Positions 10,863 to 25,260 of a stretch of 59,986 nucleotides of DNA are shown here, in pieces. Position numbers and translations under genes: made by a program. The stretch covers positions 1 through 59,986 of the forward strand of contig JAGVCW010000024.1 of the NCBI GenBank assembly GCA_020059045.1, in the 5' to 3' direction. Each line of letters opens with the position of its first letter. Within the stretch, counting starts at the first letter, position 1. The notes beneath the pieces are model-generated. The model was not told where the DNA came from. It saw only the letters and a program-made list of their open reading frames with translations, and did not search any database. The stretch is from Minisyncoccota bacterium (GTDB taxonomy: Bacteria; Patescibacteriota; Minisyncoccia; Phycocordibacterales; Zambryskibacteraceae).

Positions 10863-11060
10863 CATGAGCGGAAAATATGAACTGCTTAATATTTTCCGAT
10901 ACATGTGCTGAACGGAGGCATGTTTTTTGAGCACAAAAAACAGCCGAGTTGGGGTCGCAGAAACTTTGTTTTGACGAAAACAAAGTTATCCGTGACCACA
11001 TACTGGAAACCAAACTCTTTTGAGTTGAGGGGGACACTCCTGTCCAACCACCAACCCTAA
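10863..11060 (+). repeat. tRNA-linked structured element, copy at tRNA-Arg(TCT)
   Basis: Stem 1 pairs the tRNA end GCACATG (10860-10866) with CATGTGC (10902-10908); inside it GGAAAATAT pairs with ATATTTTCC. Stem 3 is TTTTTTG-AGCA-CAAAAAA (10923-10940). Stem 4 pairs GGTCGC (10953-10958) with GTGACC (10992-10997) around AACTTTGTTTT-GACG-AAAACAAAGTT. A last hairpin ends in a GAGTTGAGGGGGA motif also found at the tRNA-Lys copy. No gene is visible here. Confidence 0.75.
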
Positions 11061-14457: not shown

Positions 14458-14518
14458 ATTTATGCCATTTTACCATATATTTTGCAATAATGCTAGTTTT
14501 TGGTATCATGTCGAAACT

Positions 14519-14557
14519 TGCCCGCCAAAGGGTCGGCGGGTCCGCCTGTGGCGGAGA
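14519..14557 (+). promoter_or_regulatory. Double GC-rich hairpin in front of the GIY-YIG gene
   Basis: CCCGCC-AAAGGGTC-GGCGGG and TCCGCC-TGTG-GCGGA are adjacent, and the second ends seven bases before the ATG at 14564. The hairpins are much richer in GC than the surroundings and carry no T-run. They may control translation or be part of a mobile GIY-YIG unit. Confidence 0.6.
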
Positions 14558-14563
14558 ACAATT

Positions 14564-14806
14564 ATGTCTTGTATTTATGTATTAAAGAGTACAGTAAACG
14601 GGAAACTCTATACTGGTTCATCTAGAAAAGATAACCCGGACGATAGACTGGCAGCACACAACAGAGGTTCGACACGAACAACAAAGAACGGAAAACCGTG
14701 GAAATTACTTTATGTAGAAATGTATAATACATACACTGAGGCACGAAAAAGAGAAATATATTTGAAATCAGGCAAAGGAAGAGCGTTGTTAAAGCAAATA
14801 ATATAA
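14564..14806 (+). CDS. Small GIY-YIG nuclease domain protein
   Basis: Starts MSCIYVLKSTVNGKLYTGSS, where IYVLKS...KLYTGSS is the GIY-YIG motif, followed by the catalytic arginine region (DDRLAAHNRGSTRTTKNGKP), an aromatic strand LLYVEMYNTYTEA and the helix ARKREIYLKSG with a conserved glutamate. At 80 residues it is the typical free-standing UPF0213/YhbQ-like form, abundant in Patescibacteria and thought to behave like a small mobile or repair nuclease. The gene ends five bases before tRNA-Ser. Confidence 0.92.
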   Translation: MSCIYVLKSTVNGKLYTGSSRKDNPDDRLAAHNRGSTRTTKNGKPWKLLYVEMYNTYTEARKREIYLKSGKGRALLKQII

Positions 14807-14810
14807 AATT

Positions 14811-14897
14811 GGAGGAGTGGCGGAGTGGTCTAACGCACTTGTCTTGAAAACAAGAGGGCTCGTAAGGGTCCCGTGAGTTCGAATCTCACCTCCTCCG
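14811..14897 (+). tRNA. tRNA-Ser (TGA)
   Basis: Class II tRNA. Acceptor GGAGGAG/CTCCTCC, anticodon stem CTTGT/ACAAG with loop CTTGAAA giving TGA, long variable arm, T-loop TTCGAAT, discriminator G. Its 3' end is the source of the direct repeats at 15029, 15077 and 15836. Confidence 0.95.
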
Positions 14898-15086
14898 CAA
14901 CGACTCGCAAGTAGAGCTCGGTAGCTCTACGAGCGAGATGTCGGCGCGTGAGAGGTGGGATTCGAAAGCCGGAGCGCGACGGAGCGAGGCGGGGTCGCGG
15001 AAATTTTCAACAGAAAATTATCTGTGACCGAATCTCACCTCAATTTTTAGCCAAAAGGTGTACTGAAACTGTAAGTTTCGAATCTC
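14898..15086 (+). repeat. tRNA-linked structured element, copy at tRNA-Ser
   Basis: Hairpin CTCG-GTAGAGCT-CGGT-AGCTCTAC-CGAG (14904-14937) is followed by an inverted complement of the tRNA T-arm and acceptor (14952-14966 against 14878-14892, one mismatch). Stem 4 pairs GGTCGC (14993-14998) with GTGACC (15024-15029) around AATTTTC/GAAAATT. Partial copies of the tRNA 3' end follow at 15029-15041 and 15077-15086, the second preceded by GGTGTAC and hairpin GAAAC-TGTAA-GTTTC (15065-15079). Confidence 0.75.
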
Positions 15087-15119
15087 TCTATTCTTTAAAG
15101 CTGATATACTTTTTATCAT

Positions 15120-15815
15120 ATGTCCTATAACTACACTTACATATTGATGGGAGTTGGTTTCGGTTTAATTTGGTTATCTTTTTATTTTATAAACAGCAAA
15201 CTACGCAGGGAGATGTTGGTGATGTCTATAATTTTTGGCATACTGGGTCCAATCTCCAACATTCTCTTTATTAAAGATTGGTGGGCGCCATTAACTATTG
15301 ATGGGACATCTGTTGGAATAATTGACTCTGCCTTTGTTGGTTTTGTCATTGGAGGTGTAACAGGAGTTTTGTATGAATTTTTTCAGCATCTCACCTCCAG
15401 AAAATCTTCAAAGCTTTTAAGTAAAAATGAACATGTCTGGTTCCTTCTTATGGTTCCCATATCGCTGGGAATTTTCTTTGGGGGTTTCTACCTTCTGCAT
15501 CTTAATAGTTTTATTACAAGCACCCTCGCACTTTTTGTTCCAACAGTTGTTATTTTGTGGAGAAGAAAAGATTTAATAATTGATGCTTTTGCTAGCGGCA
15601 TTTTATTAACTATTACTGCAGTGTTTATATATAACTTATTGGAAATCTTAACCCCAGGTTGGGTTAATGAATTTTGGCAATGGCAAAATACTTCTAAAAT
15701 TATCGTGATAAATACTCCTATTGATGATGTAGCGCACTACTTTTTTCTCGGGTTATTTGGTGGTCCTCTATATGAATATTGGGAAGGAAGACGTCTAGCC
15801 AGAAGAGCTAGGTAA
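15120..15815 (+). CDS. Multi-pass membrane protein, possible lycopene-cyclase-domain fold
   Basis: The 231-residue protein has about seven hydrophobic helices. Two halves each end in a similar unit: IDSAFVGFVIGGVTGVLYEFF and PIDDVAHYFFLGLFGGPLYEYW. A tandem helical repeat with a P-I-[DE]-[DE]-x3-[FY]-F motif recalls the lycopene cyclase domain (CrtY/CarR type), but no carotenoid gene is near, so the biochemical role is open. TATACT ends ten bases before the ATG. The gene is bracketed by copies of the tRNA-Ser 3' end (15077 and 15836), as if it were a cassette. Confidence 0.6.
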   Translation: MSYNYTYILMGVGFGLIWLSFYFINSKLRREMLVMSIIFGILGPISNILFIKDWWAPLTIDGTSVGIIDSAFVGFVIGGVTGVLYEFFQHLTSRKSSKLLSKNEHVWFLLMVPISLGIFFGGFYLLHLNSFITSTLALFVPTVVILWRRKDLIIDAFASGILLTITAVFIYNLLEILTPGWVNEFWQWQNTSKIIVINTPIDDVAHYFFLGLFGGPLYEYWEGRRLARRAR

Positions 15816-15830
15816 TGAAGACAGAATCTT

Positions 15831-15857
15831 TAAGTTTCGAATCTCACCTCCTCCGCA
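15831..15857 (+). repeat. Perfect second copy of the tRNA-Ser 3' end
   Basis: Bases 15836-15857 repeat tRNA-Ser 14878-14899 without a mismatch (22 bp, T-loop to the CA of the tail). The 15-mer TAAGTTTCGAATCTC at 15831-15845 also occurs at 15072-15086, so the membrane-protein gene lies between direct repeats. Confidence 0.9.
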
Positions 15858-15995
15858 CTTAGAATCAAGTAGCCGGGTCCGCTCTACTTACACAAGACAG
15901 CTCAACCGAGCGATCTTCGTTTTTAATCTAGACAGTTCACTTTGGAAGTCCTATCATTGGAATGTATATATTATTAAAGCTTTTAACACTTTCTC

Positions 15996-16253
15996 ATGAC
16001 GAATGAAGAGGCTCCAAAATCTATAGAATCGACAGAAGAAAAGATAACTAGGGCAAGTAATCTTAATTTCAATGATTTTGTTCAAGAAATAAGCATATGG
16101 CCTGAGGATGAAATTAGATCAATGGTAGATTTTCTAGAAAACAGGAAAAAGAATATTGATGCTCACTACCAAGACTGGCTACCTGCTGCAGCACAACCAG
16201 GGAGGAAAAGGGATGATGCTTTCTTAGATGCTCTAAAGGCACGACTCAGCTAA
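15996..16253 (+). CDS. Small acidic/helical hypothetical protein (second tRNA-Ser cassette gene)
   Basis: No family recognised. The 85-residue protein is highly charged and predicted helical in its centre (FNDFVQEISIWPEDEIRSMV then DFLENRKKNIDAHYQDWL). The C-terminal RKRDDAFLDALKARLS could be a short amphipathic helix. No signal peptide or membrane segment. It lies between two copies of the tRNA-Ser 3' end, at 15836 (perfect) and 16363 (degenerate), like a second cassette. Coding status rests on the intact frame and ordinary composition. Confidence 0.55.
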   Translation: MTNEEAPKSIESTEEKITRASNLNFNDFVQEISIWPEDEIRSMVDFLENRKKNIDAHYQDWLPAAAQPGRKRDDAFLDALKARLS

Positions 16254-16362
16254 TCACTCGCAGAGTCCATTAAGAGAAAAGAGCCTCATATTGAAGAGAG
16301 GGTTACCATTGTTTAACAATGTCAAAATGAGTCAGGTCTATGAGCATTAAATAGGTTCTAAC
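16254..16362. other. Intergenic stretch with short palindrome
   Basis: No gene seen. CATTGTTTAACAATG (about 16310-16324) is a palindromic hairpin. The stretch joins the small cassette gene to the degenerate tRNA-Ser end copy. Confidence 0.5.
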
Positions 16363-16497
16363 TTCGTCTAACACCCTCCGCAACGAACGAAGTGAGTGAA
16401 TGAAGGAGGAGAGCAATGTGTCTACACACATTGCGTGTAAGATTCGAAAGGCGCAGACATGTTTTGTCAGTAGACAAAACGGTCAAGCGTCAGACTA
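16363..16497 (+). repeat. tRNA-linked structured element, distal tRNA-Ser copy
   Basis: It begins with a degenerate copy of the tRNA-Ser 3' end (16363-16384). CCTCC pairs with GGAGG around ACGAACGAAGTGAGTG (16383-16398), a 16-mer identical to 24955-24970 after tRNA-Lys. Then hairpin GCAATGTGT-CTAC-ACACATTGC, an inverted T-arm complement GTGTAAGATTCGAA (16435-16448), and GTTTTGTC-AGTA-GACAAAAC (16461-16480), which corresponds to stem 3 of the other copies. Confidence 0.7.
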
Positions 16498-16560
16498 TTT
16501 TTTATAAAATAATTGTTACCGATCCCAATCTCTTAAAATTTTTATGATAAACTCATATGC

Positions 16561-17010
16561 ATGCTCGAAGAAGTTGGAAAGATAATAATCATGGCACTTG
16601 GCTTTGGTGGTTTTCTACTTGCAAATTATATTCTTGATACCAAAAAAACTTCTAAACCATTGGTCTGTCCCCTTGAAGGAAGCTGCGAGACGGTGTTACA
16701 AAGCGAGTACTCGAAGATATTAGGAATCCCTGTCGAGATTCTCGGTGTACTCTACTATGGTTTCATTACTCTCTTCTACTTCCTGCTTTCATTCTTCCCA
16801 AGTGTTTTGCCGGAACAACTTTACCTAATAGTAGTTGCTCTAACAGCCTGTGCCTTTCTGTTTTCAATTTACCTAACCGTTGTCCAATCCATACTTATTA
16901 AACATTGGTGTACATGGTGTCTGGTATCAGCATTCATCTGCTCTATAATCTTCATTCTTGCAATATATATTGCAAACACTGAGATTATAGAACTATTGCG
17001 ATTTGCTTAG
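16561..17010 (+). CDS. Vitamin K epoxide reductase family (VKOR) thiol oxidoreductase
   Basis: Bacterial VKOR proteins re-oxidise DsbA-like partners during disulfide formation. The 149-residue protein has four transmembrane helices, a loop cysteine pair CPLEGSCETVLQSEYSK with the conserved serine-like segment, and the catalytic CxxC in KHWCTWCLVSAF. GIPVEILGVLYYG is also family-typical. No thioredoxin domain is fused. The partner DsbA is not in the window. TATGAT lies just before the ATG; no Shine-Dalgarno. Confidence 0.93.
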   Translation: MLEEVGKIIIMALGFGGFLLANYILDTKKTSKPLVCPLEGSCETVLQSEYSKILGIPVEILGVLYYGFITLFYFLLSFFPSVLPEQLYLIVVALTACAFLFSIYLTVVQSILIKHWCTWCLVSAFICSIIFILAIYIANTEIIELLRFA

Positions 17011-25107: not shown

Positions 25108-25260
25108 CCCTGCTGGGCGGACACGATTGAAAAATATGAACTACTTCATATTTTTCGATACGTGTCCGAGACGGAGCGATGTCCCTCAAGTATGAGGGAC
25201 CGCGAGTCGGGGTCGGGGAAATTTCATTTTGACGAAAATGAAATTATCCGTGATGACAGG
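25108..25260 (+). repeat. tRNA-linked structured element, second tRNA-Lys copy
   Basis: It begins with a 19-bp perfect copy of the tRNA-Lys 3' end (25108-25126 equals 24940-24958). GGACACG pairs with CGTGTCC, inside it GAAAAATATG with CATATTTTTC; stem 3 is TCCCTCA-AGTA-TGAGGGA; stem 4 has AATTTCATTTT-GACG-AAAATGAAATT. The layout matches the tRNA-Arg(TCT) copy with different stem bases. Confidence 0.8.

Follow-up and report, generated by a model that had tools for sequence, protein, structure and literature searches.

A tRNA-Ser insertion hotspot in a Minisyncoccota genome and its probable link to large serine recombinases that carry their attachment site in their own gene

From our analysis of a window of 59,986 nucleotides (the whole stretch of DNA that was analysed), which comes from the 0.9-Mb genome of a Minisyncoccota bacterium, we propose that the tRNA-Ser(TGA) locus is probably an insertion hotspot for elements whose large serine recombinase (LSR) gene itself contains attP, that a short site behind the tRNA, Z, is the far-end scar of such an element, and that two other modules, X and Y, belong to a second class. 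In the proposed mechanism, integrative elements that carry an LSR would use the terminal ~8 nt of a tRNA gene (acceptor 3' strand and discriminator) for recombination, and their attP would form part of the 3'-terminal LSR coding sequence. On insertion, the LSR body would come to adjoin the tRNA in antisense, and its native C-terminal tail would remain at the opposite end of the element, joined to another core copy. Z at 16355-16381 would be the far-end scar, and the DNA from tRNA-Ser to Z may have been delivered by one or more LSR insertions, with the recombinase lost later. X and Y would represent a second, independent class of tRNA-3'-end insertions, of which X has three hairpins and is strand-specific; X and Y and their tRNA copies are not accounted for by LSRs.

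The putative anchor, or attB, is tRNA-Ser(TGA) at 14811-14898 on the plus strand (ARAGORN; Rfam tRNA, 62.9 bits). The repeated sequence is its own 3' end (14878-14898, plus strand), and this 21-mer, TTCGAATCTCACCTCCTCCGC, has 2 matches in the window against 0 in 100 dinucleotide shuffles. Behind the tRNA on the same strand lie a spacer with the apex of hairpin H1 (14899-14951, delimited from the sequence and from relatives with the same layout), element X (14952-15041) and module Y (15053-15086), which reads GGTGTACTG-hairpin-TGTAA and ends in a partial tRNA-end copy at 15077-15086. Cargo gene 1 (15120-15815, plus strand) encodes a 231-aa membrane protein of the lycopene-cyclase-domain family (PF18916, E=1.4e-10); it is flanked by two Y-type boundaries, the second being a Y-like stretch at 15821-15857 (plus strand), and module Y also occurs at other loci (L011/L033, L032, L031 and L047). 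Cargo gene 2 (15996-16253, plus strand) encodes an 85-aa protein with no family above the cut-off. Z and a degenerate copy of X follow, and the right border of the variable region is a VKOR-family gene (16561-17010, plus strand; PF07884, E=8.5e-23), which is a conserved neighbor, syntenic in G003, G004 and G006, and not cargo. Directly 5' of the tRNA is a small GIY-YIG nuclease ORF (14462-14806, plus strand; Pfam PF01541, E=1.5e-15). Genes of this family also stand beside tRNA-anchored sites in G013, G005 and G042, and small GIY-YIG nuclease genes adjoin tRNA-anchored arrays repeatedly (L126, 4319-4540; L158, 2536-2778; L237, 404-673).

The initial annotation had described the region as an integron-like cassette array with several copies of the tRNA end, and the repeats that it listed are real. 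The perfect 22-bp copy at 15836-15857 is confirmed and is beyond chance by the shuffles of the 21-mer. A 25-nt direct repeat of 88% identity (15062-15086 and 15821-15845) takes in both the 15-mer repeat (15072-15086 and 15831-15845) and the partial copy (15077-15086). Two copies had been overlooked, both of them inside X: an inverted one, GAGGTGGGATTCGAA, at 14952-14966, and a direct one, D2, at 15029-15041. The degenerate copy placed at about 16363-16384 exists as the tail part of a site of 27 bp (16355-16381), which we read as an LSR attachment scar.

Serial insertion at a tRNA attachment site, as had been suggested for this locus, is supported by the orthologous sites, because conserved flanks enclose different content in different genera. 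Across the family, tRNA-Ser(TGA) keeps RuvX on its upstream side and VKOR and/or DUF5673 on its downstream side, and the DNA between these neighbors changes by genus. The site holds a pilin-like gene and a bPH_2 (PH-domain) gene in G003, with perfect tRNA-end copies on either side at +187 and +2148; purD and an ITPase gene in G009; a single 179-aa gene without repeats in G004; the N-terminal start of a serine recombinase in G006; and two other genes in G018, while in G011 DUF5673 adjoins tRNA-Ser directly. Neither window gene is fixed among these relatives, so the outcome that would speak against serial insertion, fixation of both genes in all of them, is absent; the genomes compared are species representatives, not strains, and the order was sampled by searches. 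Cargo gene 1 is present in 8 of 98 genomes searched, our own counted. A 35%-identical homologue sits in the tRNA-Asp array of G013, a member of another genus, and the homologues outside G013 (in G082, G063, G089 and G076) have no convincing Z and no tRNA near them. Cargo gene 2 has no homologue in any relative locus compared.

Site Z consists of 16355-16373 and an 8-nt tRNA-end core at 16374-16381 (plus strand), and would be the attR scar of an LSR element. The 27-bp site reads GTTCTAACTTCGTCTAACA, then CCCTCCGC, and 0 occurrences are expected by chance. A pattern search allowing 2 mismatches found Z in 97 of 197 genomes of the order, and in array-bearing genomes the clusters of Z well exceed a reversed-pattern control (for example, 10 vs 1 in G079). 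Arrays of such scars also stand behind tRNAs in several further families. The 8-nt suffix of Z tracks the end of the upstream tRNA, with a mean of 5.24 of 8 positions against 4.16 and none of 5,000 permutations as high (n=21). Z varies mostly at the third codon positions of a minus-strand peptide, (L)V[DE][DE]VRT, a subset of which runs on to YIYIPNL and a stop codon. We had considered Z as an attC-like DNA site and dropped this, since the variation falls at positions 9, 12, 15 and 18 and the minus strand gives LSR codons. In the window, the minus-strand reading of Z gives LDEVRT and belongs to a putative LSR C-terminal tail, LRRVLDEVRTYLMLIDLTHFDIVKQW* (16303-16386, minus strand), which overlaps Z and has homologous tails in G009 and G043. 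Z is coding-like, yet most arrays have no long ORF there. Among viral contigs, Z patterns gave 15 stretches whose reverse reading lies within viral proteins with no sign of an LSR, and we judged these to be chance. Of additional note, a variant, GTTCGAACTTCGTCCAAAA, recurs in several genomes (e.g., G044:C8, G034:C16 and G053:C15), with AACACCGCC next to it in those flanks that were read; the minus strand of the variant also gives LDEVRT, and it could possibly mark another LSR target class.

The link between Z and LSRs comes from relatives in which more of the element is present. G146 has a 535-aa LSR with Resolvase, Recombinase and zinc-ribbon domains that lies antisense to tRNA-Asp and ends ..INLILRG* in the core. 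A Z located 14.3 kb from the tRNA-Asp core continues the frame of this LSR (...INLILRG|LVDDVRT..YIYIPNL), and the same contig has a reverse ORF that leads from the coiled-coil region of an LSR across the core to LVDDVRTEIIDYKSYIYIPNL. Z is also adjoined in frame by another, homologous LSR fragment, so that two elements stand in tandem. At the same tRNA-Ser as in our window, G009 keeps a truncated LSR, two cargo genes and Z; the LSR remnant behind the tRNA joins the tail in Z in frame, ...NPVMRRVLDEVRT, also written ..CEQNPVMRRVLDEVRTSLMLSDYT. Since the reading frame of the LSR body continues through the core into the scar in G146 and G009, the only two loci at which this join was seen, attP would lie within the 3'-terminal part of the recombinase gene, with Z as the far junction. 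Both junctions share a core: the Z suffix repeats the final 8 nt of the tRNA. Catalytic, recombinase and zinc-ribbon domains are found together in G146 and in other relatives, and the window has the C-terminal tail only, with no remnant of an LSR body. At L326 (15707-16315), the body of one LSR is joined in frame to the tail of another where two elements meet; such a chimeric junction is a possible way to exchange recombinase tails.

LSRs are encoded in 134 of 197 genomes of the order, and the LSR 3' end overlaps a tRNA gene in 12 of 33 LSRs sampled. Against the proposed mechanism, no convincing far-end scar was seen for the other tRNA-overlapping LSRs examined, several of them on short contigs, and a search by PF00239 gave no LSR in the array-bearing genomes G013, G003, G097, G210 and G198. 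Viral contigs held no confirmed LSR relatives, and those in phage and plasmid records are distant, with less than 30% identity among the matches listed.

Our sequence comparisons indicate an LSR, and not a tyrosine recombinase, as the enzyme concerned. A genome-wide search for an integrase, which the initial annotation had recommended, recovered two tyrosine recombinases (an Xer-like protein on contig C25 and a weak 374-aa match to PF00589 on C6), together with a single LSR of 444 aa on C2; none of these enzyme types tracks the arrays in its distribution. Y1/RAYT transposases, the other search target of that annotation, do not track the elements either. A dedicated tyrosine integrase was rejected, because there is about one Xer-like protein per genome with or without arrays. 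The term "integron-like" is at best unproven: membership among integrons is rejected because no integron integrase was recognized, most array genomes having a single Xer-like protein. attC was judged by inspection only; Z varies like a coding sequence and would be an LSR scar, not a hairpin attC, and X is a hairpin that was not recognized as attC.

How the arrays with one gene per interval came about can be understood in more than one way. Within our preferred explanation, it has close to an even chance that they are fossils, full-size LSR elements that were inserted serially and eroded down to the gene nearest the far-end scar. The full 14.3-kb element of G146 followed by a second LSR fragment, the truncated LSR with its two cargo genes and Z in G009, and the gene nearest Z in G146, which is oriented as array genes are, all agree with erosion. 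It is also favored by what remains at the array boundaries, which is one half (P') of the LSR site; the sequence 3' of the core at these boundaries is terminator-like and not common between them. Against it, repeated similar deletions would be required to give about one gene per interval so often, with clustered sizes. This clustering, together with gene direction and a repeated unit, favors single mobile units instead. A true cassette system, in which a recombinase from another locus, either an LSR or the single Xer, acts in trans to move single genes with a terminal Z (or X/Y) site into integron-like arrays at tRNAs, is possible but rather unlikely. It would fit the series of Z behind tRNA-Asn, Met, Gln, His, Asp and Gly, which have a spacing of about 0.1-1.4 kb and usually one gene between them, and the orientation of the genes between consecutive Z sites (12 on the plus and 2 on the minus strand; p=0.013, n=14). 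It would also fit a RelB / ParE-YafQ toxin-antitoxin pair between scars in G210; other cargo includes DapB, a GDSL lipase and a serine hydrolase. The tRNA-Asp array of G013 is ordered GIY-YIG gene, tRNA, X, tRNA end, gene A, Z, X, tRNA end, membrane gene, Z; it therefore repeats the unit X-tRNA end-gene-Z, its second X being 98% identical to the first, and the same order occurs at tRNA-Asp in G000. However, mobility of LSR-less units driven by an LSR is doubtful, because only the P' half is conserved at the boundaries and the DNA after the core is terminator-like and unshared, and the distribution of no enzyme tracks the arrays. The G210 array (L240) contains more RelB-like/RelE-like pairs besides the one between Z scars, and recalls the toxin-antitoxin cassettes of integrons. 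A wider picture would have Patescibacteria with self-splitting LSRs (attP in their own gene, the C-terminal tail swapped for tRNA-antisense codons on insertion, with a possible switch of direction) build and exchange integron-like single-gene arrays behind tRNAs in trans, together with a structured element that copies tRNA ends; we regard it as speculative and unlikely to hold as a whole.

Element X is an order-wide, strongly covarying three-hairpin element that is uncatalogued and absent from Rfam. In the window (14952-15041, plus strand), it consists of the inverted tRNA-end copy, hairpins H2 and H3, of which H3 has a bulged A, and D2. Of the two structured elements that had been noted before, this one is strong, scoring 104 bits with its own model (E=3e-29), and the other, a degenerate copy at 16434-16532 (plus strand), is weak (cmsearch, 13.9 bits, E=0.029). 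The inverted and the direct copy pair to form the base stem of the fold, which also has a GC-rich hairpin and a long one that holds the bulged A and a conserved G.U pair; by the bulged A and the G.U pair, the folded strand can be identified. Double changes occur in 13 of 22 pairs (RNAalifold), 86.7% of cells pair when the base stem is included, against 36-47% with the partner slid, and on each of five measures the observed value was reached by 0 of 500 shuffles. Against Rfam, X itself has no match at E<=1; a sub-threshold match to sX4 across tRNA and spacer scores 19.6 bits, where the cut-off is 70.

By DNA search, X recurs across families of the order. In most cases beside tRNA-Ser, Val, Glu, Leu, Tyr, Met and Asp, the 3' end of the particular tRNA is present in X twice, once inverted and once direct, and tRNA-end copies at X loci number 63 against 0 in shuffled sequence, a comparison that is biased since the loci were picked by X matches. 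The covariance model has matches in 50 of 61 genomes (our own counted), with 0 to 58 copies per genome; in our own genome it gave 17, one being a reverse-strand shadow, and 9 of the remaining 16 lie directly 3' of a tRNA on the same strand. Further matches in the window are at 10898-11009 behind tRNA-Arg(TCT) and at 25170-25255 behind tRNA-Lys(TTT), the latter preceded by a perfect 14-nt copy of the tRNA-Lys end at 25109-25122. In a second array of the same genome, on contig C12 (L112, 9479-12210), tRNA-Met has an X enclosed by a direct repeat of 47 bp, and the series tRNA-Asp - X - gene - Z - X - gene - Z follows. Some copies of X, in G046 and in other genomes, lie inside disrupted tRNA copies that have an intact counterpart shortly downstream, or are set in palindromic repeats. 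At L104, L041, L038, L042, L098 and L043, X splits a tRNA gene copy in the T-loop or D-loop and the intact same tRNA follows immediately 3', as if the target had been duplicated. The 58 copies of G046 (L094-L105) include several within a palindromic repeat family, GTCATCCTCGCGAATGCGAGG, and others in a longer, near-identical repeat. The exact pattern of X had 0 occurrences in viral contigs. A RAYT/Y1 transposase was rejected as the mover of X, since many X occur without Y1 in G040 and G048 and the reverse is found in G016, and tyrosine recombinase counts do not follow X copy number across genomes.

That X and Y are functional RNA modules of the tRNA transcript, for processing or termination, with unrelated flanking genes, would suit the covarying, strand-specific fold with its G.U pair and bulged A and the sense orientation behind tRNAs, but is improbable given that related genomes differ so widely in copy number, that many copies in G046 are away from tRNAs and some lie within broken ones, that the direct and inverted copies are tRNA-specific and that content differs between loci.

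If the LSR explanation is correct, it predicts that the tail of the LSR, and perhaps its direction, changes on insertion. It would also give very small, host-dependent bacteria a route, with the enzyme class named, to acquire single genes such as metabolic enzymes and toxin-antitoxin pairs at tRNAs, and the 27-bp signature is recognizable and can be scanned for across Patescibacteria. In the literature searched, we found neither tRNA cassettes nor LSR splitting nor X described for Patescibacteria.

Among known systems, X is similar to REP/MITE-like palindromic elements in being a short, strand-specific hairpin without a gene of its own, and differs in that it copies the end of the local tRNA in both orientations, direct and inverted, and in showing no correlation with Y1. 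Tycheposons carry tyrosine recombinases. Like tycheposons and tRNA-anchored islands, the locus described here is a tRNA site refilled with cargo, but the enzyme would be an LSR and the units are much smaller; these islands are mentioned in PMC10872708. Integron cassette arrays are likewise head-to-tail series of mostly single genes in one direction, with toxin-antitoxin genes and a boundary site after the gene; here, there is no IntI, no attC-type boundary was recognized at Z and the anchor is a tRNA. LSR phages and integrative elements (PF00239, PF07508 and PF13408) share the domain architecture and a core common to both junctions, whereas in the present case the target would be a tRNA 3' end, attP would lie in coding sequence and scars would accumulate serially. 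A parallel in working is seen with the "suicidal" tyrosine integrases of the archaeal SSV type, which have attP in the recombinase gene and are split by insertion, with fragments at both ends of the element (PMC8371274). The in-frame joins in G146 and G009 point to the same arrangement, but the enzyme here would be a bacterial serine recombinase, of which the extreme C-terminal tail alone is split off and the catalytic domain stays whole; the LSR system would thus resemble the SSV-type integrases without being a member. A 2021 review held self-disrupting recombinases to be exclusive to archaea (PMC8371274), and a serine recombinase with its attachment site in its own gene would be, in the literature searched, the first bacterial counterpart of the archaeal suicidal integrases.
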